Source: Bacteroidota bacterium | GTDB lineage: Bacteria; Bacteroidota; Bacteroidia; Palsa-965 | Direction of reading: 5' to 3' | NCBI GenBank assembly: GCA_006218065.1 | Contig: VBWE01000020.1 | Coordinates: forward strand, 1-64,000 | DNA length: 64,000 nucleotides | In this document: positions 44,642 to 59,075 of the stretch, piece by piece | Layout of the letters: every line of letters begins with the position of its first letter | Position numbering within the stretch: position 1 is the first letter of the stretch | Translations under genes and position numbers: made by a program | The notes under the pieces: model-generated | The model's database searches: none | Told to the model about the DNA's origin: nothing | Seen by the model: the letters and a program-made list of their open reading frames with translations, nothing else

Positions 44642-47600
44642 TTAATGATTCTTTACCATTCGTTTGGTGTCGATTACCTGGCCATCTGCAACAAGCGTGT
44701 ATGTGTACAGGCCATTGCTCAGGTCATTGGCAAATACATGCACACTGCCTTTGCCCGGTTTGGCATCCAGGTCAACGGAGTTGATCAGTTTGCCTTCGGC
44801 ATTGTAAAACAGTATTTGTGCTTTTACTACGGCATCAGTCAACGTATAGGTGATCGTAGTCTGTTCCGCAAACGGGTTCGGTGTATTCTGGTCCAGGATG
44901 ATCGATTTGATATCGCTCAGTTCAACCGTTGTCGAATTATCAGGCTGTACCGGGACATTAGTGCCGGTAAGAATATTCTTCAGCGTTTCAATTTCGTTTT
45001 TCAGCGTTTCAATTTCCGACTGCTGTTCCTGGATCGACTTGGTCAGTACGGGGATCAGTCCGTCGTAATTCACCGCTTTGAACTCGCCGCCTTTGCTGAT
45101 CACGTTGCCTTGATCATCTTTAAATTCGGGCTTGCGGGTATCCGTAACGAGTTCCGGAATAACCTGCTCCAGTTCCTGTGCAATAAAACCGTATTGTTTT
45201 CCTTCACGCAGATGGAGTTCCGGAAATGCAGCCGTTTTATGATCATAGGTTACCGGGTTCAGTTTTTTCAGCAGTTCGAGGCCGGATTCAAGCGTAACAA
45301 CGTTTTCCTTTAATTTCTGATCGGAAAAAGAGAATGCGGGGCCGCTTGTGATTCCTCCTACAAAATAACCTCCGAATGTTTCACCTTCACCGTAAACACC
45401 ATAACTATTTGTAGCTGTACCGCCCGCGTTTATCGTGGCGATACCAACCACCCCGATATTATTGGTTGTTGTCCCGGTGGGGGCAGTCGTGGCGTAGCTG
45501 AAGGTGCCGATATTATCCTGTGCAGTCGCACCGTTAGTTGCGGTAGCATAAGTGCCGTAATTCAGGTTGGTACCGGCAGCAGTGAACAAACCGCCGCGTG
45601 CGTTCGCTGAAAGCGGGTTGGTTGAAGTGGCCACGCCGAGAATACCCGCGTTGCTGAGTCCGTTGCTCGCTTCACCCCAGGTTCCTACGTTGTTCAGCGC
45701 AAAGGAACCGCTGGCATACGCCTGCGAGCTTCTGCCCCGGACGCCGGTGTTTCCCGTACTGTTGAGGGCATCTCCGTAAACGCCCACGTTCTCGCGGTTA
45801 GTTCCGTTGGCCGTGCCGGATACGCCGTAAGCGCCACCCATGTAAGGCGTGCTGGTGGCAATGTCGCGGTTTTCGGAGCGCGCAGCAACGACGAGGGGCA
45901 GCGTATTGGTGGTAATGCTCCGGATTACGTCAAGTTTCGCGCCCGGTGTGCAGGTGGTGCCGATGCCTACAAAGTTGTCGCCGTCGAGCAATGTGCCCGT
46001 GGGATCAGTAAACACAAAATTGTTCGTGTTCATCGGAATTTCCCAATCTCCGGCCAGAACAGGAGCCGTAGAAGGGCTTACACAAAGTCCGCCGAGAGCA
46101 GACCCCGATGTTCCACCATCTACATAAATCACATCGCCGTTCGCATCCACAGCCAGCACGCCCGTGCCGGGATTGGGCACGGTGGGCGTAGCAGTGCTCA
46201 GGTCTTCGAAACGCAAGCCGCTGACTCCACCTGGCGTCAGGTCGTCCAGCGCTATACCGTTGATGTGTACGGTGTTCTGCGGCGTGATGGCTAAAGTAAA
46301 GAAGTCTCCGAACCCGGTTCTTCCTATGTTGCCGTCGCTCCACATGCGGGCAATTTCCAGTCCTTCCGAAGTTGCTGCTGTTGTTCCTGATGGGGTTGCC
46401 TGCGTATAGGTAAAGCGCATATTCTGGGATAAATTTCCGCCCCAGTTCACTACAGCATCATTGACGCCGTTTACATCACGCTTCAGACCAACATACATGC
46501 TGTTCAATCCGAACGATGAAAACATTCCCACATCCATCCAGGCGCGGTGCCCGAAAGTGATGCCGAACAGATCGTTGTTGTAGCCCAGGTGCAGCAGGGA
46601 TAAAGGCCGGGTTAACGGTGAATTTGGATTATGGCTGATGCTCATCCGGGTAAAATTACCATTCACGCTGGCGTAAGGCGTGTACGGACCATATCCTATG
46701 CCCCCTAAGGCTGTAGGTGTATTGTAACTCATGATACGTACGCGTTCCCGCGTTGCAGTTGCAGTAGTGGTTGTGGTGTTCGCGTTGGTCGAAAGCAGCA
46801 GCGGCTGCAGCTCCTGGTTGTACAGCATGCCGATACCATTTTGCAGTGCGTTCGTACTGCCGAAGATACCTAAACGAAGACCGTCGCTGGCCAGAATTCC
46901 TGTCGGACCGTTATTGACTGATCCTCCACTCCCGAGGAACTGGTTGCTGATCTGGTGCCAACTGCTCGCAGCGTTTTCCTGGTGCTGGTGCAAATTACTT
47001 TGGGGATCAATTTGCTGATTAAAGCGGGGACCGATACCGACATTGCCGGTTCCCATCATACGGATAATTTCACGGCCGTCGTTATCGACACCGTTTAAAT
47101 CAGGTATGTTTGCTGTTTCGGAAGCTATAGACCCTGCTCCGGCAGTAAAGCGGAAGCTCATCACATCTTTCCCCGCCGGACCTGAAGCATTATCACTCCA
47201 GGCGATAACAGTTTCCGTCCTGTCCAGAGCTCCTACCTGCCGGTGTCCTATGTACGACAAGTCATTATTGCTTGTATAGGTGATGCCCGTCTGCATCCAG
47301 TCACGGAAGCCACCCGTTTGTACAAAGGTGCCGGGACCATTCAGATGAAATAAGCTGAATGCGCCATTATTGGGACTGAGGGGAGATTGATATAGCGGGC
47401 CGATGGTATTACTTCCTGGCTGGCCAAGCAGTAAATAACCGTTTCGTGTTTGGGTAAACCCATTGATGTTGTATGAAACATTCCCGTTCAGCTTCATCCG
47501 GTATGCATCATTTGTAATCGTGTAAATCGGAGAATTATAACAGGTGCCGAACCTATTATCATTTCCACCAGGTCCTGCAGCTTGGTTTCCGCCCCTGAGC

Positions 47601-47725
47601 CATGCCCTGGACGAGCCTGCACCGGAGAGCGACGGTGTCGACAAACAACTGCCCGTTGGTTGCAGTTGCGCATAAGTTTCCATCCCTCCGATGAAAATAA
47701 ATGCCAGTACTAGTGTTTTTCTCAT
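44642..47725 (-). CDS. Tail-fibre-domain (S74/endosialidase-chaperone-type) surface protein with T9SS type A sorting domain
   Basis: FSDQKLKENVVTLESGLELLKKLNPVTYDHKT...QYGFIAQELEQVIPELV, then DQNTPNPFAEQTTITYTLTDAVVKAQILFYNAEGKLI. Confidence 0.85.
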   Translation of the reverse strand: MRKTLVLAFIFIGGMETYAQLQPTGSCLSTPSLSGAGSSRAWLRGGNQAAGPGGNDNRFGTCYNSPIYTITNDAYRMKLNGNVSYNINGFTQTRNGYLLLGQPGSNTIGPLYQSPLSPNNGAFSLFHLNGPGTFVQTGGFRDWMQTGITYTSNNDLSYIGHRQVGALDRTETVIAWSDNASGPAGKDVMSFRFTAGAGSIASETANIPDLNGVDNDGREIIRMMGTGNVGIGPRFNQQIDPQSNLHQHQENAASSWHQISNQFLGSGGSVNNGPTGILASDGLRLGIFGSTNALQNGIGMLYNQELQPLLLSTNANTTTTTATATRERVRIMSYNTPTALGGIGYGPYTPYASVNGNFTRMSISHNPNSPLTRPLSLLHLGYNNDLFGITFGHRAWMDVGMFSSFGLNSMYVGLKRDVNGVNDAVVNWGGNLSQNMRFTYTQATPSGTTAATSEGLEIARMWSDGNIGRTGFGDFFTLAITPQNTVHINGIALDDLTPGGVSGLRFEDLSTATPTVPNPGTGVLAVDANGDVIYVDGGTSGSALGGLCVSPSTAPVLAGDWEIPMNTNNFVFTDPTGTLLDGDNFVGIGTTCTPGAKLDVIRSITTNTLPLVVAARSENRDIATSTPYMGGAYGVSGTANGTNRENVGVYGDALNSTGNTGVRGRSSQAYASGSFALNNVGTWGEASNGLSNAGILGVATSTNPLSANARGGLFTAAGTNLNYGTYATATNGATAQDNIGTFSYATTAPTGTTTNNIGVVGIATINAGGTATNSYGVYGEGETFGGYFVGGITSGPAFSFSDQKLKENVVTLESGLELLKKLNPVTYDHKTAAFPELHLREGKQYGFIAQELEQVIPELVTDTRKPEFKDDQGNVISKGGEFKAVNYDGLIPVLTKSIQEQQSEIETLKNEIETLKNILTGTNVPVQPDNSTTVELSDIKSIILDQNTPNPFAEQTTITYTLTDAVVKAQILFYNAEGKLINSVDLDAKPGKGSVHVFANDLSNGLYTYTLVADGQVIDTKRMVKNH

Positions 47726-47836: not shown

Positions 47837-50530
47837 CTAAAACCGGATTTTTTTGAGCTCTTCGAGATAAGTTTCCCCTACAGGCAATCTTTCATTGTTT
47901 ACAGTTACGTCCTTTTTGCTTTTTGCCTGCACTTTGTCGAGCCGGACAATATAGGATCGACTGATCTGGAGGTACTCCAAAGGATCGGGAACGATGTCCA
48001 GGAACTCGCCGATCTTGAACCGGACCAGGTATTTTTGAGTATCGGCATGAATTTCAATGTAGTTGCCGTCGGCTTTCACGTAACAAATGGTATGTGTCGG
48101 AATACGTATATCTTTTCCTTGCTCCCGGAATACCACGTAATTGGTTTTCCGGGTAAAGCGTTTCAAGACTTGCCGCAGCAGTTCGCGCGTGATATCACGA
48201 TTATAACTTAAAATCCGGTACCGGAAAAAAAGATAAATCAACAGGACAATGACAACTGTAAGGCCGGTGATAAACCACCAGGTTTTCCAGAACGGGGGTA
48301 AAATAGTAAAGCGTATTCTTTTTTCCTGGTCATCCCAGTATTGGTTGGATCCTTTTACCTGTATTATAAAGGTGTAAGTACCGGGCGGGAGGGAGGAGTA
48401 AAGCGCTTCCCGGGAGCTTGTATAATTCCATTTATTCTGAAGTCCTTCCAGCATATACCTGTAAACTACGGGCGAGCCTGTAAAACTGACGGCGCCGAAA
48501 CTGAATTCAACCCGGTTTTGATTGTAGGATAAAGATTCTCCGTCGGCCAGCCCGGCTTCGCGGTCATTTATGGTGACCTGCTGAATCGATAAATAATAGT
48601 TGCGCGTAACCGGCTCGCGCTCCATTATTTTTGCCGGGAAAAAGCATATTCCCTGCCGGGTTCCGACCCAGGCGGTGTCGTGATGTATCGTGATGCCTGT
48701 TACCTCGTTGCTTATAAGCCCTTGCTGGTTGGACATCACTTTTACATCAAACGATCCGCTTTTTGTTTTTTCAATACGGTTTAACCCGGCGTTGGTGCAG
48801 ATCCATAAAACGGATTGGTTTTCTGCATATATCATATTAATAATGTTGTTGGCCAACCCTGCTTTTTCATCCAGGCGGCTGACCGTTTTTTGATCATAAA
48901 ACAATACTCCCTGCCCTTTGGTGGCGATAGCCATTACTGATCCGAAAATTTTCAGATCACTAATCCAGGTCTCGGGTACTATATTCACTTTTTCATACGC
49001 CGGGACATCGCCGTTACGCATCACGTACAAGCCTTTATTACTGCCCAGGTACAGACTGCCTTTGTAATGGCAAAGCGCATTTACCCGGAATCCCGTTTTT
49101 AGAAAGGTAAGCGTTTGAAGATGCGCCAGGTGGGCATTGCCATACCCTCCTATCCAAACAGAGTCGACCGGGGAAACATACACGCATGTAGGGTTGAAAT
49201 TTAAGATCAGTTGCCCCGTTTTTTTTCCTTCGGATAACATCAGGTCCGAGGAATAAAATATTTTTTCCCCTGGAAAATCAGTCGCCACAATAGCCGGTTT
49301 TTTGATCCGTGGACGATAAATGCTATGCAACATATTCTGTTCAAGCACATCGACATTCCCGTTGTAATATCCCAGCCAAATCCTTCCTTCCTTATCCTTT
49401 GTTATACTGTTGATCCAATCCTGCTCACTATTTACCGAAGCAAAAGTTGTCACGAAGGTATTTCGTGCATGAAAAACACCATCGTTCAGGGTGGATACCC
49501 AGAACCCGTCTTCATGATCAACCAGCAGCCTGGTAACTGATTTCCCCATTAAAAATCTGCGCTTTACTTTTCCGTCCAGGTTATAAATGGTAACGCCGCC
49601 GTACCGGAAGCCTACCCAGAATAAAGAATCATTCAGTTGGCCTAATGAAATCGGATCGTGGATATTCGTAACGCGCAGTGTGTCATGATCCGGCCGTATG
49701 ATCGTTATCTGCTTCGGGTTGACAAATACAGCCGAAGCGGAATGCTGAAAATAACAGGCCCTGGTAAGATCGTCGCCCCTGCATTCGGGTACGGAGGATA
49801 CATGACCGGACCAATACGTTTCCGGTTTGACAGTTTGATCGGATGGCTGGAGATAAAAAAAATCAGGATGTTTTTTGCGATGGACCAGGACACTTTTATT
49901 CGTACGAAGCCCGTTATGTCCCTGTTGATTTTTTAATATTTTTCCATCAGCGTCAATATGCAAGTACCCGATAGAATTTACAAACCCCATATACAACTCG
50001 TTGTTTGCAGTTACATGGATAGCCTGGGGGACGATCACATCCGGCAAAGAAGTCAGAATTTTATTGAATTTGTACGGCGTAAAAACAGGCTCCCGGCCGG
50101 AGAAACAAAACACACTTTTGTTAAAGGTGCTGCACCATATTTTACCATCGGCCTGGCAGTAAAATTTAAAAATAGTGTTGTCGGTTAACCCGTCTGCTAT
50201 GGTGTAATTTCTAAAATCATAACCATTAAACCGGGAAAGACCGCGGTCGGTTGTGAACCACAAATTGCCGTATTGATCCTGGATAATATCGTGGACCTGC
50301 GAGCTGGGAAGTCCCTGGTCAACACCATAGTGCCTGAAGCCCAGGTCTTGCGCCCGTACCGTGTGAATACCGGCAATCAGAATCAGGCAGTAAATAATAT
50401 TTTTTATCGGATGGATATGTATACGCTTATTGATCCCGGGGACAAAAATACCGATTAAAGGGTAAGGAGAAATGGATTCTGCAGTCGTGTCTCCGATTGG
50501 ACTTAAACAAAACTTCAGGACACTTTGCAT
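47837..50530 (-). CDS. Transmembrane two-component-regulator beta-propeller protein with C-terminal LytTR DNA-binding domain
   Basis: GLPSSQVHDIIQDQYGNLWFTTDRGLSRFNGYDF; Y_Y_Y-like segment; one TM; C-terminal NYVVFREQGKDIRIPTHTICYVKADGNYIEIHAD...YLQISRSYIVRLDKV. Confidence 0.88.
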   Translation of the reverse strand: MQSVLKFCLSPIGDTTAESISPYPLIGIFVPGINKRIHIHPIKNIIYCLILIAGIHTVRAQDLGFRHYGVDQGLPSSQVHDIIQDQYGNLWFTTDRGLSRFNGYDFRNYTIADGLTDNTIFKFYCQADGKIWCSTFNKSVFCFSGREPVFTPYKFNKILTSLPDVIVPQAIHVTANNELYMGFVNSIGYLHIDADGKILKNQQGHNGLRTNKSVLVHRKKHPDFFYLQPSDQTVKPETYWSGHVSSVPECRGDDLTRACYFQHSASAVFVNPKQITIIRPDHDTLRVTNIHDPISLGQLNDSLFWVGFRYGGVTIYNLDGKVKRRFLMGKSVTRLLVDHEDGFWVSTLNDGVFHARNTFVTTFASVNSEQDWINSITKDKEGRIWLGYYNGNVDVLEQNMLHSIYRPRIKKPAIVATDFPGEKIFYSSDLMLSEGKKTGQLILNFNPTCVYVSPVDSVWIGGYGNAHLAHLQTLTFLKTGFRVNALCHYKGSLYLGSNKGLYVMRNGDVPAYEKVNIVPETWISDLKIFGSVMAIATKGQGVLFYDQKTVSRLDEKAGLANNIINMIYAENQSVLWICTNAGLNRIEKTKSGSFDVKVMSNQQGLISNEVTGITIHHDTAWVGTRQGICFFPAKIMEREPVTRNYYLSIQQVTINDREAGLADGESLSYNQNRVEFSFGAVSFTGSPVVYRYMLEGLQNKWNYTSSREALYSSLPPGTYTFIIQVKGSNQYWDDQEKRIRFTILPPFWKTWWFITGLTVVIVLLIYLFFRYRILSYNRDITRELLRQVLKRFTRKTNYVVFREQGKDIRIPTHTICYVKADGNYIEIHADTQKYLVRFKIGEFLDIVPDPLEYLQISRSYIVRLDKVQAKSKKDVTVNNERLPVGETYLEELKKIRF

Positions 50531-50567: not shown

Positions 50568-51872
50568 TCAAATCTTCAACGCCTTCGCATGCCGCGATGT
50601 CTTCTGCGGATTCCACGGATCCTTGTACGATGCCTTGAAAAGCAATTCCTGGATATACGCTACCGAACGGATAATCCGCAGGTAATACCCGAAGTAAATC
50701 ACCATCACGGGCAGGTACGGAAGGAAATAACCGATCGGTTCGTTGCGCTTGGTGCGGAAAAGGGAGAACATGAGGTACTTGACCACGTTACTGCAGGTGT
50801 ACAGCAGGATGTTCGTCATCAGGATGAACGGAATGTACGAAGCGAAATTCACCACCATGTCGGCGATGTACACGTACCATTTGATGTTCAGTACCAGGTT
50901 ATAGGTAATCTCGACGAATGAAATAAAATTGGACCAGCGGAATGTTTCGTTCGGGTAAAAAACGTCGCGGTGTTTGCGCAGGCGGAAACGGATGAGCGAT
51001 TTGTCCCAGCGCAGGCGCTGGCGTATGAGTTTCCGGAACGTAACCGGCACACTGGTTTTGCAGATCGCGTTCGGCTCGAAACGGATTTTGTAACCGAGCT
51101 TGCGCACTTTTACCGTGATGTCGCCGTCGAGCCCGGGCCCGATGTCCCAGCCGCCCACGCGCGTCAGCGCCTCGCGCCGGAACGCACCGAACGCGCCCGA
51201 GATCACCCGGTAAATGCCCAGTTCGCTCGTCGCGATGCGGCCCACGGAAATCGTATCGAAATATTCGACGGCCTGCAGCGTGGCGCAGAGACTGTGTTTG
51301 TAATTGCGCACGGTTACGTTTCCACCCACCGCGCCCACGCGGATGTCGTAAAAAAACGGGATGATGATATTTTCCAGCGCATCGCGGTCGTATGAACAGT
51401 CGGCATCGAGGTGGACCACGAACTTGCCCCGCGCATAACGCAGCCCGAGGTTCGCCGCCGACGCTTTCCCGCCGCGCACGTCGTTGCGCAGGTACAGGTT
51501 GATGAACCCGTTGCGTTTCAGGCTCGCGCAGATAGCCGGCGTCTGGTCGTCGGAACCGTCGTCGATGATGATCAGCTCGTAATTCGTGTACGTCTGTTCC
51601 TTCAGCGAAAGCGCGAGACGGAAAATATGCTGCCCTTCGTTTTTACCCGGAACGATGATCGAAATGAGCGGCTGCTGCTCGAAAAGTTCCTGCCGGGCCC
51701 TTCTTGTACGGTCTTTCCTGAACCTGCGCGTCAGCCACCAGAGTGAAACCGTGAGGAAATCGAGCACGAAAAACCGCAGGAATTCAAAAAAAACGAAGAA
51801 CCAGAAAATGCGGACGAATTTCCAGAGGTCGATGGACGTGACGTAAGCATAAAAATCGTCGAGGAAATGCAT
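50568..51872 (-). CDS. Processive-type family 2 glycosyltransferase (membrane)
   Basis: ISIIVPGKNEGQHI; LIIIDDGSDDQTP; VVHLDADCSYDRDAL; DGDITVKVRKLG; QRLRW (QxxRW); flanking TMs. Confidence 0.9.
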   Translation of the reverse strand: MHFLDDFYAYVTSIDLWKFVRIFWFFVFFEFLRFFVLDFLTVSLWWLTRRFRKDRTRRARQELFEQQPLISIIVPGKNEGQHIFRLALSLKEQTYTNYELIIIDDGSDDQTPAICASLKRNGFINLYLRNDVRGGKASAANLGLRYARGKFVVHLDADCSYDRDALENIIIPFFYDIRVGAVGGNVTVRNYKHSLCATLQAVEYFDTISVGRIATSELGIYRVISGAFGAFRREALTRVGGWDIGPGLDGDITVKVRKLGYKIRFEPNAICKTSVPVTFRKLIRQRLRWDKSLIRFRLRKHRDVFYPNETFRWSNFISFVEITYNLVLNIKWYVYIADMVVNFASYIPFILMTNILLYTCSNVVKYLMFSLFRTKRNEPIGYFLPYLPVMVIYFGYYLRIIRSVAYIQELLFKASYKDPWNPQKTSRHAKALKI

Positions 51873-51947
51873 TGTTTAGTTCTGTTTAAATTCCTCAGAG
51901 TAAATGTTACCTGTGAAGTGATTCGTATTTCGGAATGTGTTCTCTTT

Positions 51948-52083
51948 CAGTTTGCCAGTTTGCAGTTGGCAGTTTTGGTATTACAAGGAAGTCGTCAAAA
52001 TTTGCATACTCCTGGTTTAAACAAGACAAAACTGCAAACTGCAAACTGCCAACTGGCAAACTGCAAACTGGCAAACTGCAACA
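51948..52083. repeat. Intergenic inverted array of cagtttgc / gcaaactg words
   Basis: cagtttgccagtttgcagttggcagttttg ... caaaactgcaaactgcaaactgccaactggcaaactgcaaactggcaaactgcaa. Confidence 0.8.
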
Positions 52084-52111
52084 CCATCTTCATGCTTCCG
52101 GTTACACAGTT

Positions 52112-53548
52112 TTAATTAAACAATTCCTTCGCCAGCAGTTGCAGTTGCGCATCCACCGGCGTGCCGATCTGCAGCGGTTCGATATGATGGCGGATGCTCG
52201 CTTCGAAGGCGCTGAAATTTTTGTGAATGGCGGTTTGCATCGAACGCTCGATATTATTCGCCGTGGCTGCCGCCGCTGCGGGATCGGTATCGATCATGGA
52301 TACGTAAAAAGTAGCGGCGCTTTCGAGCCCAATATAATCCGACGGGCGGATATTTTCCCGCACGAGGTTCATCAGTTCGATGATCAGGTTCTTCCGCGAT
52401 TTCGCCCCGATACGGTTGTACAGTTCGTAAATGTTCTCGAGGTGGAATACGGCCACGCTGCTTTTCAGCGCACTGTTTTTCCGCATCCGTTCCACTTCGT
52501 AGTGCAGCATCACTTTCATCACTTCCGGCCGGATGGTGCCGAAAATATCTTCCACTTCCTGCGAAGCCGTGAACAGCCCGTTGACAGCGGCCGAACGGCC
52601 TTTCTTGGTGAGCTTGAACAAATAGATCGTTTTTGGAATAAGATACTGCACTTCGATATCCTGCTCGCAGGAAAGGCATTTCGCTTTCACGTAAAAGTCC
52701 TGGAAATTATTGTCGCAGTTGTTGCAGTGGTTGATCACCGAAGGCTTGTCGTAATCCACGCCGATATGCCGCAGTGTTTTGCTGCACTTCGGGCAGGAAA
52801 GTGTATTGTCCACCGGGTTCCGGAAATCGGAGATCGGGCCGATGTATGCGCAGGGAAAATGGTGCACGAGGTCTTCGCTTTTGGCGTTCGACGACTGGCA
52901 GTGCGGGCAGACTTCACGGTAGCTGAGGAAACCGCTGCTGCAGTTGTTGCAGAGATAAATCCGTTCGTGGAAATCGGGCCAGATCAAACCTTCTTTTTCC
53001 GCCCATTCGAGAATATCGAGCGTTTGCGCTTCCTCGCGGTCGTCGAAACTCACGCTGAGTTCCGGGTACGTGTACCCGACGATGGAATTGACGTCGATGT
53101 GCGGGCGCAGCGTTTTCGTTTCACGCGTATGCATGAAGTTGAACACTTTTTTCATCGTCTGCGCCTGGAATGAATTCGGCAGGTTGTAATCCAACTGCGT
53201 GGTGAGCAAAAAAATCTGCCGCACGATATTCGCCAGTTCCGGCACCTGGTCGAACGAATAGATGATGCCGTCGTGCAGGTGATTGATAAGCGGATCTTTC
53301 GTCGGTTTTACATTCAGCAGGAAAACCGGCTTGAGGTAAAACTCGGGATTGTAATGCGTGCGGATGCGTTTGATGATCAGGCGCGTGAAATCATGGTCGC
53401 GTGCGTCGAGGATAAGCGCATCGTAGCCCATCAGTTCCTCGATCCGGAACGAACTGTTGTTCTCGATATAATAAAAGAGCAGGTTGCCGTAACTGATGCG
53501 GCCGTCTTTCGCTTCTATTTTCGATTCGTTCTCTTTTTTCGTATCCAT
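52112..53548 (-). CDS. Receiver-like / multi-zinc-ribbon / degenerate GGDEF-like regulatory protein
   Basis: N-terminal YDALILDARDHD; CNNC-CPHC, CPKC, CNNCDNNF, CLSCEQD clusters; C-terminal SSVAVFHLENIYELYNRIGAKSRKNLIIELMNLVRENIRPSDYIGLESAATFYV. Confidence 0.65.
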   Translation of the reverse strand: MDTKKENESKIEAKDGRISYGNLLFYYIENNSSFRIEELMGYDALILDARDHDFTRLIIKRIRTHYNPEFYLKPVFLLNVKPTKDPLINHLHDGIIYSFDQVPELANIVRQIFLLTTQLDYNLPNSFQAQTMKKVFNFMHTRETKTLRPHIDVNSIVGYTYPELSVSFDDREEAQTLDILEWAEKEGLIWPDFHERIYLCNNCSSGFLSYREVCPHCQSSNAKSEDLVHHFPCAYIGPISDFRNPVDNTLSCPKCSKTLRHIGVDYDKPSVINHCNNCDNNFQDFYVKAKCLSCEQDIEVQYLIPKTIYLFKLTKKGRSAAVNGLFTASQEVEDIFGTIRPEVMKVMLHYEVERMRKNSALKSSVAVFHLENIYELYNRIGAKSRKNLIIELMNLVRENIRPSDYIGLESAATFYVSMIDTDPAAAAATANNIERSMQTAIHKNFSAFEASIRHHIEPLQIGTPVDAQLQLLAKELFN

Positions 53549-53554
53549 GAATGA

Positions 53555-54655
53555 TCAATACTTGAACTTGGTTACTTCAACGCTCATTTTGTAAAACGAG
53601 CGCCAGAGTTTCTGCTCCGTGCTGTCGGCCGGGTACACGTCGGCGGCAATGCTGCGCTGCACGGGTTCGTACCGTTTCTGGAATTCTTCGGGCAGCGGAA
53701 CGGTAGAGTAGTAGAAGCGTTTCAGGATGCCCTTGCTTTCCGATCCGTCGGGGAAATGCACGGTGAGCTCGTCGCCTTCCATAAAATATTCCATGTCTTC
53801 CTGGTTGAAGAATGCACGGACATAAATCGGTGAATTTTTATGGATGGACATGACGACTTCCTGTTTCAGCGCAGTCTCGAACTGGCGGGTATAAATCCGG
53901 TTCACCGAGCCTTCGATCGGGGCGAGAAAAACGCGCGGCTCGGTAACGTCTTCGCCCGATCCGCCCGCACCCGCCGCAATCGCCGTGCCCGACGCTACGC
54001 GCATTTTTTTGTCCGCCGGAAGCAAAGCCGTAAGTTGCGCGATAAGTTTGCGCAACTCGTTGTTCTCGCTGTTGATCCGACCCACGGCGGCTTTCAGTTC
54101 CGTAATGTCATGCAGGCGCAGGTCGAGCCGGGCCTGCGGAAGCGCGTCGAGGATCACCTCGTTTTTCAGTTTCGGAATTTCCGTTTCATAGGTTCTTACG
54201 AGATCGGTTTGCTCCCGGATCTCGGTATTGTTGACAGCGATTTTTTTGCGCAGGTTGTAAATTTCACGCTCCACCCAGTCGTACCGGTTATTGCCAGATG
54301 AACTGTCGCGGCCTGTCGCTACAGATGCGCCGCTTCCCCCGCCGTCGTCTTCATCGATATCTTCCACGTATAAAAAAAGCGAGTCGCCGACTGCGACGGT
54401 ATCGTCCTCGTTCTTATAATAATTGAGCACGCGGCAATCGTTCATCAGGCGCACGTTCACGTTTTCGAAAAGCACCTGGCCGTTCGCCTTCACGTAAAAA
54501 ATCTTGTCGAACAGGTACCAGCCGAGGAAAAGGAAAAGCAGGATGAGAAACGCAAAATAAACGATGCGGTCCCAGTTGTAACTCCTGCGTTTATCAGCAT
54601 CATCCGGCATTACCCGGATGGCCGCTCCTTTACGTTTGAAATCAATGCTTTTCAT
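53555..54655 (-). CDS. HlyD-like membrane fusion protein
   Basis: Single N-terminal TM, KANGQVLFENVNVRLMND lipoyl-like half, long coiled coil, VFLAPIEGSVNRIYTRQ second half. Confidence 0.75.
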   Translation of the reverse strand: MKSIDFKRKGAAIRVMPDDADKRRSYNWDRIVYFAFLILLFLFLGWYLFDKIFYVKANGQVLFENVNVRLMNDCRVLNYYKNEDDTVAVGDSLFLYVEDIDEDDGGGSGASVATGRDSSSGNNRYDWVEREIYNLRKKIAVNNTEIREQTDLVRTYETEIPKLKNEVILDALPQARLDLRLHDITELKAAVGRINSENNELRKLIAQLTALLPADKKMRVASGTAIAAGAGGSGEDVTEPRVFLAPIEGSVNRIYTRQFETALKQEVVMSIHKNSPIYVRAFFNQEDMEYFMEGDELTVHFPDGSESKGILKRFYYSTVPLPEEFQKRYEPVQRSIAADVYPADSTEQKLWRSFYKMSVEVTKFKY

Positions 54656-54661
54656 AAAAAC

Positions 54662-56746
54662 TTAATCGCTTCCCCCGGTGCCTTTTTGTTCATCGAGTTC
54701 GAGCAGGGTGCTGAAATCGTGCAGGGCCATGACGGAGAGATCGAGATTTTGTGCGAGCTCTTTCATCAGCGCTTCCATATCGTTCCTGTTTTTAAAATCT
54801 TTGGCGCGGATGGCGATGGTCGTTTTGCCCGGGCTGATTTTCATTTCCTCGGCTATTTTTTTCGTGATCCATTCCGCATCGGGATGTTCGTAGGCCATGA
54901 TGATCGCTTCATCCACGATATCGTAAATTTCTTTGAGGTGAGTTTCCGGGTAAAAAACAGGAATTGATACGCCGAGCTTCCAGCCTTTGCGGTTGCAGTA
55001 CTGGCGGGCTTTGCGCAGCATGTCCACGTAAGCGTCCAGGTATTCCGTTTTTTTCGTGTCCCAGTCGGCCAGCGTATGCGGTTCCACGTCGAGGTGAATG
55101 CCGTTGATCTTGTGCGTACCGATAAGCGCGGAAAGCGAATCGAGGTAAACGGTGATGTCTTTTTTGATGAGGTTGTTGTTTCCTGCCAGCAATTCCACCG
55201 CGATCTTGTTGTTCGCGAGCGAGTCGATCAGCGCGAAGGTTTTGGCAAGCGGCGCTTTTTCTTTATTCACTGAAACCATGGCAGTGCCGATTTTCTGGTA
55301 CCTGAGGTATTCCACGATCATGCTGTTCGAATGATCTTTCACCGCTTTCGACCAGATGTAAATACTGCGCTGCGCGGGACGCTGGGGCAGTGCGGCGGCC
55401 GCGGCACGGTAGGGCATTATATATTCCGAAACCGGCGTTCCCGGTAACTGTTCTTTAATGTCGAGCAGTTTCAGGTACAGTTGCTGCGAAACATCCGTCA
55501 TCTCGATATCGATGGCCAGCAGGTCGTCGAGCAGGGTGAGCGCTGTGAGCGGGTTGAATTCCAGGTCGCCGAACTGTTGCTTGACGCGTTCGATGCGGAT
55601 GAGTTCGATATACAGTTTGCGTTTCTCGGCCAGGTCGGCGTATTGTTTCAGTTTGTACCGGAACTCATAAAAATAATTCGCGATGTTCAGGCGCAACTGC
55701 TGATCAACGTAACGCTGTTCTTCCTGCTGCAGGTTCTGCTGTACTTCGATCAGTTGTTCGTTCCGCGTTTTCTGGAAACGGATCGGTACCGAAAAATTCA
55801 GCCCCGCAGAAAAGAAACCGCGGTTCGTGATATTGATCATGTCGTAATAATTGTACCGCAGGTTCGCCGCCAGCCGCATGTCGTTCGTGAGCGCCGACTG
55901 CAGGCGGAAATTTTCCGAAACCAGCATGCGGATACTGTCTGCCGAAGGATGAATGCCCGCCAGCAATAGTAATTTTTCCTGGTCGATGTCGAATGCGGGG
56001 AGCATGCCCGCAGGCAAAGTCGCCGGGTTGATGATCGTGTTCAGCTGATCGTTATACGCCTTGTAAAGCTGGTACTGGCTGCTGATCTGCACCTGCTGCT
56101 GCAGCGATTCCATGAACTTCGTATTCGGAACCTGGTGCAGGTAATACAGTTCGCCGATGGTATTCAGTTTCTCTTCGCTGATTTTTTTCCGCTTCTCCAG
56201 CAAAACGGTTTTCTGGATGTTGAAGGCGTAGATGATACTATTATAAGTCAGCAACAGTTGATCAGGCGAACTTTTTTCTTTGTCCTTCAGCCGCGCGATC
56301 GTACTCTCATTCTGCAGCACCTGCTCTTTATTTTTATTGGCAAGAAGGCCGTTGCCTAAAATATTCCAGTCGAGACCGGTTTGCACGCGGCGTTTGTAAA
56401 AAAGATCGTCGTCGCTGAGGTTGGGCTGCAGGTTTTCGAGATAGCCGGCATTCAGGCTGAGTCCTTTGTCGCCTTTGATCTGCTGCATGCGCAAGGAATA
56501 CAGTTGCTGCTGGAAAACGAGCGAAGACGAAACAGGTGAATTTGTGGAAGCGGGCGGCGCATCGAAAACGCGGCTCACCACGGTGAACGGTTCGAGCGCC
56601 CGGGGTTGCAGCGAGTACCCGTTATGCTGCAGCCATACCGAAGTAAGCGCGGCAATTTTGCCGGAAACCAGGGAATCGCCTGTTTTAGCTGCAACAGGGC
56701 AGACAGCCAAAAACATCCCGATGACGGGGAGCATGATATGCTTCAT
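54662..56746 (-). CDS. TolC-like outer membrane protein fused to C-terminal TIM-barrel glycosidase-like domain
   Basis: Signal peptide, long periodic helices typical of outer-membrane efflux proteins, then INGIHLDVEPHTLADWDTKKTEYLDAYVDMLRKARQYCNRKGWKLGVSIPVFYPE...EAIIMAYEH. Confidence 0.7.
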   Translation of the reverse strand: MKHIMLPVIGMFLAVCPVAAKTGDSLVSGKIAALTSVWLQHNGYSLQPRALEPFTVVSRVFDAPPASTNSPVSSSLVFQQQLYSLRMQQIKGDKGLSLNAGYLENLQPNLSDDDLFYKRRVQTGLDWNILGNGLLANKNKEQVLQNESTIARLKDKEKSSPDQLLLTYNSIIYAFNIQKTVLLEKRKKISEEKLNTIGELYYLHQVPNTKFMESLQQQVQISSQYQLYKAYNDQLNTIINPATLPAGMLPAFDIDQEKLLLLAGIHPSADSIRMLVSENFRLQSALTNDMRLAANLRYNYYDMINITNRGFFSAGLNFSVPIRFQKTRNEQLIEVQQNLQQEEQRYVDQQLRLNIANYFYEFRYKLKQYADLAEKRKLYIELIRIERVKQQFGDLEFNPLTALTLLDDLLAIDIEMTDVSQQLYLKLLDIKEQLPGTPVSEYIMPYRAAAAALPQRPAQRSIYIWSKAVKDHSNSMIVEYLRYQKIGTAMVSVNKEKAPLAKTFALIDSLANNKIAVELLAGNNNLIKKDITVYLDSLSALIGTHKINGIHLDVEPHTLADWDTKKTEYLDAYVDMLRKARQYCNRKGWKLGVSIPVFYPETHLKEIYDIVDEAIIMAYEHPDAEWITKKIAEEMKISPGKTTIAIRAKDFKNRNDMEALMKELAQNLDLSVMALHDFSTLLELDEQKGTGGSD

Positions 56747-57740: not shown

Positions 57741-59075
57741 TTATTTCAGGAAAGTCTTATAGTTCGCCTGTGTCACACCATCCACCTTAAACTTATTCAG
57801 CCATACTTCTTCTTTCACGAGTTCTTTCGCGCAAACGTCCACGTATTTTTTATCGTAGTAACCTTTCGAGAAGGACCAGCGGTGGCCGCTGCCTAATTTT
57901 CCGGACAGTTCATCCAGTTCGAAAATGGTTTTCCGGAATTCGTCGTCGAGCAGCGTGAACAGTACGCGCAGGTTTTGGTTGTTCTGCAGTTCGGCGTACT
58001 GGTCGGTGTGCTTCATGCTGGCATAGTGCAGGTACCAGGCGGTGAACAGGCGGAATTCGTAATGCGCGAAGTAGGTGCCGGTAGCCTGCCCGATGAATGC
58101 ATGCGCGAGGGCCGTGTCTTTTTCCGCCAGTGCCGTGCGTGAAGCGACCAGGCAGGAACGCACGCCGTTACAGTATGCGGAATATTCGTCCATCAGCCCG
58201 TAAATGCCGGATTTGTTTGCGCTCACATAGCTGCCTTTGCCGACGTACGTTTCGTAACGGAATATTTTCCCGATCGATTCGGCGGGAACGATGGCCGCGA
58301 ATTCTTCCGAGTTGTACGTCGTTGTCCGGCTCACGGGGATATTGATTCCCGGAACCACGAGGTAATTGGTAAATCCGTTGTAATGATGCACCGATTCGTG
58401 GATCACTGTTTCGAATTCCGAGAACAGGTTGCGCGAACTGGTGTCGCCGCTCCAGGGTACCAGCACCCCGCCGATACTGGTGGAATAGCAGTCGGGTCCG
58501 CAATACGCGGTTTTCAAAACGTCGTCGTAACCTTTGGCGTACTGCCCGGCGATTTTGATGTAATAGTTTTTGGCAAAATCGCCGGACCCGGCGGGAGCGG
58601 CTTTTGTTTCGGATGTTTTCGGATCGGTTGCTGCTTTTTCCGGAGTTTTCACCGCGGCGACAGCCTGTTCATCGATCTTCGTCAGCGGGTTGTAGCTCCA
58701 GTTCTTTTGGTATTCCGGTTCGGTGCTGGCGGTCATCATGGCCGGTTTTTTGGTCACCGCATCCCATTTGCTCCGGTGAAGTCCCTGCTTCGAAACGTAA
58801 ACAGTTTTACCGAGCAGCGGGTTGTAGCCGTGCTTTTTCATTTCGGTGCTGAGTTTCAGCCTGCCTTTTTTCAGGGAGTAACTGCCTTCGTCGCGGCTGA
58901 TTTTTTTCTTCGTGTAGCGGCAGTATTCGTAGGTGTTGTCCTCGTAAAGTTTCAGCAGGCCGAGGTTGGATTTGCCGGACTCGAGGGCAAAAACATAGCG
59001 GATGGCTACACTGTCGCTCGCAGCGTAGAAGGGCAGGAAAAGAAAAACGGCGAAAACGGTGAGGAGATTACGCAT
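57741..59075 (-). CDS. Secreted hypothetical protein with HExxH-type metallopeptidase motif
   Basis: Signal peptide; FETVIHESVHHYNGF. Confidence 0.6.
   Translation of the reverse strand: MRNLLTVFAVFLFLPFYAASDSVAIRYVFALESGKSNLGLLKLYEDNTYEYCRYTKKKISRDEGSYSLKKGRLKLSTEMKKHGYNPLLGKTVYVSKQGLHRSKWDAVTKKPAMMTASTEPEYQKNWSYNPLTKIDEQAVAAVKTPEKAATDPKTSETKAAPAGSGDFAKNYYIKIAGQYAKGYDDVLKTAYCGPDCYSTSIGGVLVPWSGDTSSRNLFSEFETVIHESVHHYNGFTNYLVVPGINIPVSRTTTYNSEEFAAIVPAESIGKIFRYETYVGKGSYVSANKSGIYGLMDEYSAYCNGVRSCLVASRTALAEKDTALAHAFIGQATGTYFAHYEFRLFTAWYLHYASMKHTDQYAELQNNQNLRVLFTLLDDEFRKTIFELDELSGKLGSGHRWSFSKGYYDKKYVDVCAKELVKEEVWLNKFKVDGVTQANYKTFLK

Follow-up and report, generated by a model that had tools for sequence, protein, structure and literature searches.

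A group of four consecutive open reading frames on the minus strand (50568-56746) was analysed in a 64,000-nucleotide stretch of a Bacteroidota genome, here called the window. From first to last, the frames encode an outer-membrane channel of the TolC/OEP type with a C-terminal TIM-barrel domain (OEP-TIM; 54662..56746, 694 aa, with a signal peptide, kept across the loci of relatives), a periplasmic adaptor of the HlyD/EmrA type (53555..54655, 366 aa, one N-terminal transmembrane helix by hydropathy), a cytosolic regulator composed of a degenerate receiver, a TackOD1 zinc domain and a degenerate GGDEF domain (52112..53548, 478 aa), and a processive, PgaC-like GT2 polysaccharide synthase without a PilZ domain and with a WNPxKSS-like tail (50568..51872, 434 aa). 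An original prediction, made from the window alone, had placed four genes at these coordinates, and they were found there. The predicted spacing was also accurate, with exactly 6 bp between OEP-TIM and HlyD and between HlyD and TackOD1, and 239 bp, filled by an inverted repeat, between TackOD1 and GT2.

The operon is conserved in Bacteroidota. Approximately 85,000 genomes were scanned, giving 417 TackOD1-positive stretches, the best 80 of which were retained, and ten other genomes were fetched via TackOD1. The order OEP(-TIM)-HlyD-TackOD1-GT2 was seen in all of the 90 Bacteroidota loci analysed, as far as the contigs reach; in the ten TackOD1-fetched genomes OEP, HlyD, TackOD1 and GT2 follow in the same order, with one locus ending at a contig edge. 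OEP and HlyD, as well as TackOD1 and GT2, are typically a few bases apart or overlap in the relatives, and the gap between HlyD and TackOD1 is usually short or overlapping, with one or two additional genes present there in several loci. The hairpin in the window (51876..52111, minus strand) lies outside the system: its 20-base core has 10 exact copies across the genome, and in the relatives, where the TackOD1-GT2 gap has a median of -1 bp, the repeat is absent. As a genome-wide repeat missing from these gaps, it was ruled out as a regulatory part. In a sample of 198 genomes of the phylum, TackOD1 (over its cut-off) and GT2 (E<=1e-90) co-occurred in the identical 8 genomes (4 %), and at class level the prevalence was 6 % (19/295 genomes). 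Cultivable carriers include Brumimicrobium glaciale (L104), B. oceani (L114) and Crocinitomix catalasitica (L089). A GTDB record labelled Candidatus Kuenenia (L113) also contains a typical Bacteroidota operon and is probably a mislabelled or contaminated metagenome-assembled genome.

The strongest test of the linkage between GT2 and TackOD1 was a tblastn search over 72,556 plasmids, in which the 14 best-ranked GT2 places were all on plasmids also bearing TackOD1. When proteobacterial plasmids with a strong TackOD1 match were opened, TackOD1 and GT2 were adjacent, with HlyD nearby, in 9/9. The plasmid carriers were Aeromonas, Plesiomonas, Photobacterium, Phyllobacterium, Aminobacter, Methylocystis, Roseibium, Palleronia and a rhodobacterium. 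HlyD is next to TackOD1-GT2 on these plasmids, following TolC in Aeromonas. The operon TolC of Aeromonas bears a C-terminal TIM domain, and in Methylocystis the TIM domain is encoded by a separate gene adjoining TolC; since the two are fused in one genus and separate neighbours in the other, they appear to be functionally linked. That the genes belong together, as had been proposed, is thus borne out by the 90 Bacteroidota loci, and alpha- and gammaproteobacterial plasmids carry the set wholly or partly. Among the TackOD1 genes of six haloarchaeal plasmids, a single one was close to a GT2. The exceptions are Halorussus, with TackOD1, DUF2334 and GT2 in a row, and Natrinema, located via its GT2, with a partial TackOD1 fused to DUF2334 and the GT2 beside it, hinting that the TackOD1-GT2 link extends to archaea. 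At the haloarchaeal loci L141 (2248-5113) and L133 (7040-10133) a GT2 has as its neighbour a TackOD1 that is fused to, or adjoins, a deacetylase-like DUF2334 gene. A Prevotella plasmid encodes a 1135-aa protein (L139, 1670-5077) whose C-terminal third holds the GT2 domain, after a long N-terminal stretch that is uncharacterised.

The window GT2 contains the D, DxD, GD and QRLRW motifs, and it had correctly been called processive. In NCBIfam it is nearest to PgaC, with 175.9 bits compared to the TIGR03937 equivalog cut-off of 422, and it reaches 31.1 bits with the CelA/BcsA equivalog (cut-off 699); cellulose synthases are near the bottom of its list of PDB matches. By profile and PDB comparison its relatives are PgaC, hyaluronan synthases and chitin synthases, which make long polymers, and NodC is among the profile relatives. 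The C-terminal tail is WNPxKSS-like in 81/81 Bacteroidota sequences and differs from that of PgaC; it may be where the regulator docks. In a maximum-likelihood tree a branch with 95/94 support set 32 TackOD1-linked GT2s apart from seven others, one of them E. coli PgaC, in a tree where some branches are long, Sinorhizobium medicae, counted as linked, has only a weak TackOD1 match, and Halorussus, one of the seven counted as unlinked, is actually two genes from a TackOD1 gene.

The adaptor gene was rightly assigned to HlyD, as the 366-aa protein matches Pfam HlyD and, in the PDB, EmrA (8zar, E=4e-15). The channel protein of the window matches Pfam OEP weakly (E=0.003, 18-20 bits compared to a cut-off of 22 bits), and 14/20 members of its family have an OEP match (best 1.6e-12), in agreement with the original assignment as TolC-like.

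The TIM-barrel domain (residues 448-694; 54665..55405, minus strand) has invariant residues D553, E555, M617, Y619, D650 and D677. In an AlphaFold2 model built with 57 relatives it is a (beta/alpha)8 barrel with eight strands (pLDDT 93.1, pTM 0.89), in which D553-x-E555 comes directly after strand 4 and M617-x-Y619 is at the end of strand 6, both invariant in the 57 relatives. The DxE and MxY signatures of GH18 occupy these positions, with H551 in place of the preceding D of DxDxE. When the model was compared to the PDB with Foldseek, the top match was E. coli PgaB (4f9j, E=6.3e-8), with GH18 endo-N-acetylglucosaminidases among the matches below it; a PDB search with the single sequence gave only noise. 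The Pfam GH18 profile scored 20.9 bits with the domain, below its cut-off of 29.6, and reached E<0.1 in 6/57 members, while Spherulin4 matched the OEP-TIM protein weakly. The predicted fold, with a putative strand-4 catalytic acid at D553-x-E555, is of the GH18/PgaB type. A C-terminal TIM-barrel glycosidase had been predicted, and the modelled fold and the glycosidase-like active-site pattern are in line with it. We call the domain glycosidase-like; it is probably active, and its substrate is probably an N-acetylhexosamine polymer. The C-termini of TolC proteins are periplasmic, and the TIM domain is therefore expected at the entrance of the channel.

The regulator begins with a degenerate receiver-like domain (53174..53548, minus strand), recognized from alignments and from Response_reg matches in relatives; in some relatives a canonical receiver is found instead. 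It is followed by the TackOD1 zinc domain (PF18551; 52610..53167, minus strand; E=2e-51), whose score of 174.6 bits is well over the curated cut-off of 32 and whose CxxC columns are invariant or nearly so across the alignments, and by a degenerate GGDEF domain (52115..52531, minus strand). No transmembrane helix was seen by hydropathy. The AlphaFold2 model has a pLDDT of 91, the arrangement of the domains being less sure (pTM 0.65), and its C-terminus matches solved GGDEF domains. Among 59 relatives of the regulator, Pfam recognized GGDEF in 21/59 and Response_reg in 3/59, the GG[DE]EF motif was found in 0/59, and the key residues of the receiver are gone in most. The protein had been described as receiver-like, zinc-ribbon and GGDEF-like; all three parts were recovered, the zinc part as TackOD1, with the correction that receiver and GGDEF have both degenerated. 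The TackOD1 protein of three related genomes has a canonical receiver at its start, and a separate gene of ~110 aa encodes the degenerate one. Such a stand-alone degenerate receiver between HlyD and a TackOD1 protein with its own canonical receiver, a domain swap within the operon, was seen at L029 (10620-10946), L030 (10649-11005) and L032 (10756-11112). The alphaproteobacterial TackOD1 proteins of Roseibium and Palleronia have an annotated receiver, with kinase and Hpt genes nearby. The zinc domain and the receiver-TackOD1 architecture are shared with archaeal TackOD1 proteins, which occur in pilus loci and whose function is called obscure in the one paper found that names the domain (PMC5847659).

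In the window genome, which is 99.98 % complete, no GGDEF genes and no PilZ genes were found, and PilZ is also absent from the GT2; 19/20 other carrier genomes lack a canonical GGDEF. The system in Bacteroidota thus seems to run without cyclic di-GMP (c-di-GMP) made by GGDEF proteins, and control by c-di-GMP in these carriers is very unlikely. The proposal that the regulator takes the place of a PilZ domain is strengthened by a genome devoid of both PilZ and GGDEF; the TackOD1 protein is the putative controller of the synthase. PelD binds c-di-GMP via an RxxD motif at the I-site (PMC7112168), and both PelD and the TackOD1 protein hold a degenerate GGDEF domain, so that the TackOD1 protein could be imagined as a c-di-GMP receptor acting like PelD, the more so as the window protein has RPSD at the I-site position. 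RxxD is however present in only 20/59 relatives, and such a receptor would have to act in a genome with neither a GGDEF gene nor PilZ, and in 19/20 other carriers lacking a canonical GGDEF, which makes this role highly improbable.

Further clues to the polymer come from genes found in or near the operon. A TviB-like UDP-GlcNAc dehydrogenase gene is inside the operon in one genome, with a gene of the same size at the same place in two sister genomes; GalE is beside the operon in a rhodobacterium, and deacetylase-like proteins of the type IX secretion system (T9SS) are beside it in some Flavobacteriales. Together with the PgaC-like synthase and the PgaB/GH18-like barrel, these neighbours are pointers to an amino-sugar polymer, and the product is probably an N-acetylhexosamine polymer or a derivative. 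In 18 Bacteroidota loci a gene of the CotH-kinase group is directly downstream of GT2. The proteins encoded (L042, 5083-7731, and 17 other loci) in several cases have an LTD domain and a T9SS tail. CotH genes also adjoin pel loci of Gram-positive bacteria (PMC7112168).

Taken together, we consider it likely that the operon encodes a synthase-dependent polysaccharide synthesis-and-export system, built and run as follows. The substrate polymerised by the GT2 would be a nucleotide sugar, probably that of an N-acetylhexosamine or of a derivative, and the same enzyme would extrude the growing chain through the inner membrane. With the HlyD/EmrA-type adaptor as the link between synthase and TolC-type channel, the chain would leave via a sealed conduit. 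At the entrance of the channel the TIM domain on its periplasmic C-terminus may grip or cut the chain, and in this way set its length or remove polymer that has stalled. In the cytosol, the TackOD1 protein would dock on the synthase and switch it on via the degenerate receiver/zinc/GGDEF scaffold, with a real receiver supplying phospho-control in some lineages; in the Bacteroidota carriers c-di-GMP could hardly be the usual signal. The architecture is well supported; established are the gene content, its order and conservation, the predicted folds, the loss of the GGDEF motif and the lack of GGDEF and PilZ genes. A single-operon exopolysaccharide exporter with a polymer-trimming domain fused to its channel was also the core of the original prediction, of which the architecture and the conservation stand as proposed, and the product, the trimming and the control are plausible extensions of them.

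Several observations weigh against this proposal. The OEP score of the window channel is under the Pfam cut-off, and the OEP profile of the channel matched no solved TolC in the PDB. The overlay of the TIM domain with PgaB gave a TM-score of 0.59 and a root-mean-square deviation of 7.8, a likeness at fold level only, and many TIM barrels that are not glycosidases scored nearly as high as PgaB; homology of the domain to PgaB by sequence was ruled out, the link being undetectable. In many proteobacterial loci the cluster is without a TolC, and no experimental work on any member of the system was found in the literature searched. In addition, three genomes have an OEP without the TIM domain and one has a truncated TIM domain, with GT2, HlyD and OEP kept, which makes the TIM domain useful but dispensable. 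The same losses bear on another explanation, in which short oligosaccharides or a glycolipid, serving as a signal or a surface modification, are made and exported, with the nascent chain cut by the TIM domain, and no matrix polymer is formed. NodC is among the profile relatives of the GT2, and a hydrolase at the mouth of the channel would suit chain cutting, but GT2, HlyD and OEP persist in the four genomes where the cutting domain is absent or truncated, and both the processive QxxRW motif and the homologues PgaC, hyaluronan synthase and chitin synthase speak for long polymers. We regard oligosaccharide export as rather improbable.

The synthesis-and-export system proposed here may moreover represent a distinct class of synthases spanning phyla, controlled by a TackOD1 protein with a relict receiver and GGDEF, which in Bacteroidota would have lost cyclase function and act in cells without c-di-GMP made by GGDEF proteins, and with a TolC-borne glycosidase processing the polymer at the channel mouth; the chances of this broader claim appear evenly balanced. 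The operon occurs in hundreds of genomes, chiefly of environmental Bacteroidota and also of Proteobacteria, where the annotation of its genes reads hypothetical protein, 'diguanylate cyclase' or simply glycosyltransferase. If the broader claim is true, the orphan TackOD1 domain for the first time has a role, which would be to control a GT2 synthase directly. The system would also place the domain in a process; it would be seen how an exopolysaccharide system operates without c-di-GMP, and the short list of classes of synthase-dependent exopolysaccharide systems would be extended. The operon would also offer a one-operon test of GT2 export through HlyD-TolC, as proposed in cyanobacteria (PMC12430437).

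Downstream of the GT2 gene, at a distance of 37 bp, the window encodes a Reg_prop/Y_Y_Y/LytTR regulator (47837..50530, minus strand), possibly a local regulator. This LytTR/propeller gene was ruled out as a fifth component, as it is not at the same position in relatives. LytTR regulators are found upstream of the operon in five other loci (L026-L028, L097 and L098). Upstream of the operon, a search with simple patterns gave no promoter motif of the Bacteroidota type. Also on the minus strand of the window are genes for a 1027-aa protein that combines a T9SS sorting tail with an S74 (endosialidase chaperone) domain (44642-47725) and for a 444-aa protein without a Pfam match, in which a HESVHH stretch resembles the HExxH motif of zinc proteases (57741-59075).

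Of the known systems, PgaABCD resembles the operon in that the GT2 is nearest to PgaC and the TIM domain nearest to PgaB in fold. The operon consists of OEP-TIM, HlyD, TackOD1 and GT2 only, whereas the TPR beta-barrel porin PgaA, the separate deacetylase-hydrolase PgaB with its deacetylase domain, PgaD and the control by c-di-GMP are all absent. It could nevertheless be a diverged Pga system in which TolC-TIM and HlyD have replaced PgaA and PgaB and the polymer is ordinary poly-N-acetylglucosamine, given that PgaC is the best NCBIfam match of the GT2 and PgaB the best PDB fold match of the TIM domain. The GT2 score (175.9 bits compared to 422), the missing PgaA, PgaD and deacetylase domain, the separation of the GT2 branch from E. 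coli PgaC, and the want of a sequence link between the TIM domain and PgaB make this unlikely, though worth keeping in mind. In alginate synthesis the GT2 Alg8 is likewise paired with an HlyD-like periplasmic arm, that of Alg44; Alg44 however has a PilZ domain, and AlgE is a monomeric beta barrel and not a TolC.

The Pel system shares a cytosolic degenerate GGDEF regulator, a polymer-acting hydrolase (PelA) and, in some lineages, CotH neighbours. It differs in that its synthase PelF is of another family and PelD binds c-di-GMP and has GAF and transmembrane parts, whereas the operon has a PgaC-like GT2, a regulator with TackOD1 and without transmembrane helices, and no PelB, PelC, PelE or PelG. 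The Sfz stalk cluster, which pairs exopolysaccharide genes with c-di-GMP motifs, was set aside as its parts are different, with a BcsB-like protein and a GT2 fused to an EpsE-like domain (PMC8250860). Fusion of a hydrolase to a pore has a precedent, since BcsZ-BcsC fusions, in which the polymer hydrolase is joined to the outer-membrane pore, have been reported in Zymomonas (PMC7112194); these belong to a cellulose system with a TPR-beta-barrel pore, without TolC and without TackOD1.

The cyanobacterial XcsAB-TolC system (Maeda et al. 2018; PMC12430437) follows the same logic, a GT2 acting through an HlyD-like adaptor and TolC together with a polymer-acting hydrolase, and the pairing of an HlyD-like adaptor and a TolC-type channel with a GT2 is found here as well. 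The parts of XcsAB-TolC are scattered over more than one operon, and its export model is proposed and lacks experimental validation (PMC12430437). XcsA has PilZ or PCR domains and makes cellulose, the hydrolase is not fused to TolC and there is no TackOD1 protein, whereas PilZ is absent here from both the GT2 and the genome. That the operon encodes a relative of XcsAB-TolC making cellulose or another beta-glucan is suggested by the common logic, but the GT2 is without PilZ, its likeness to BcsA/CelA is very weak (31 bits compared to 699) with cellulose synthases low in the PDB list, and the GH18/PgaB-like TIM domain points toward amino sugars; we find such a relationship distinctly unlikely. 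No description of a TackOD1-GT2-HlyD-TolC system was found in the literature searched, subscription papers and preprints being outside its reach, and the view that the operon is no exact match to a described exopolysaccharide system held when it was compared to Pga, Bcs, Pel and Xcs by curated cut-off or by component list. The system is best regarded as a variant of synthase-dependent exopolysaccharide secretion that is widespread and, it appears, had not been described; it would work like Xcs or Pga and is a member of neither.

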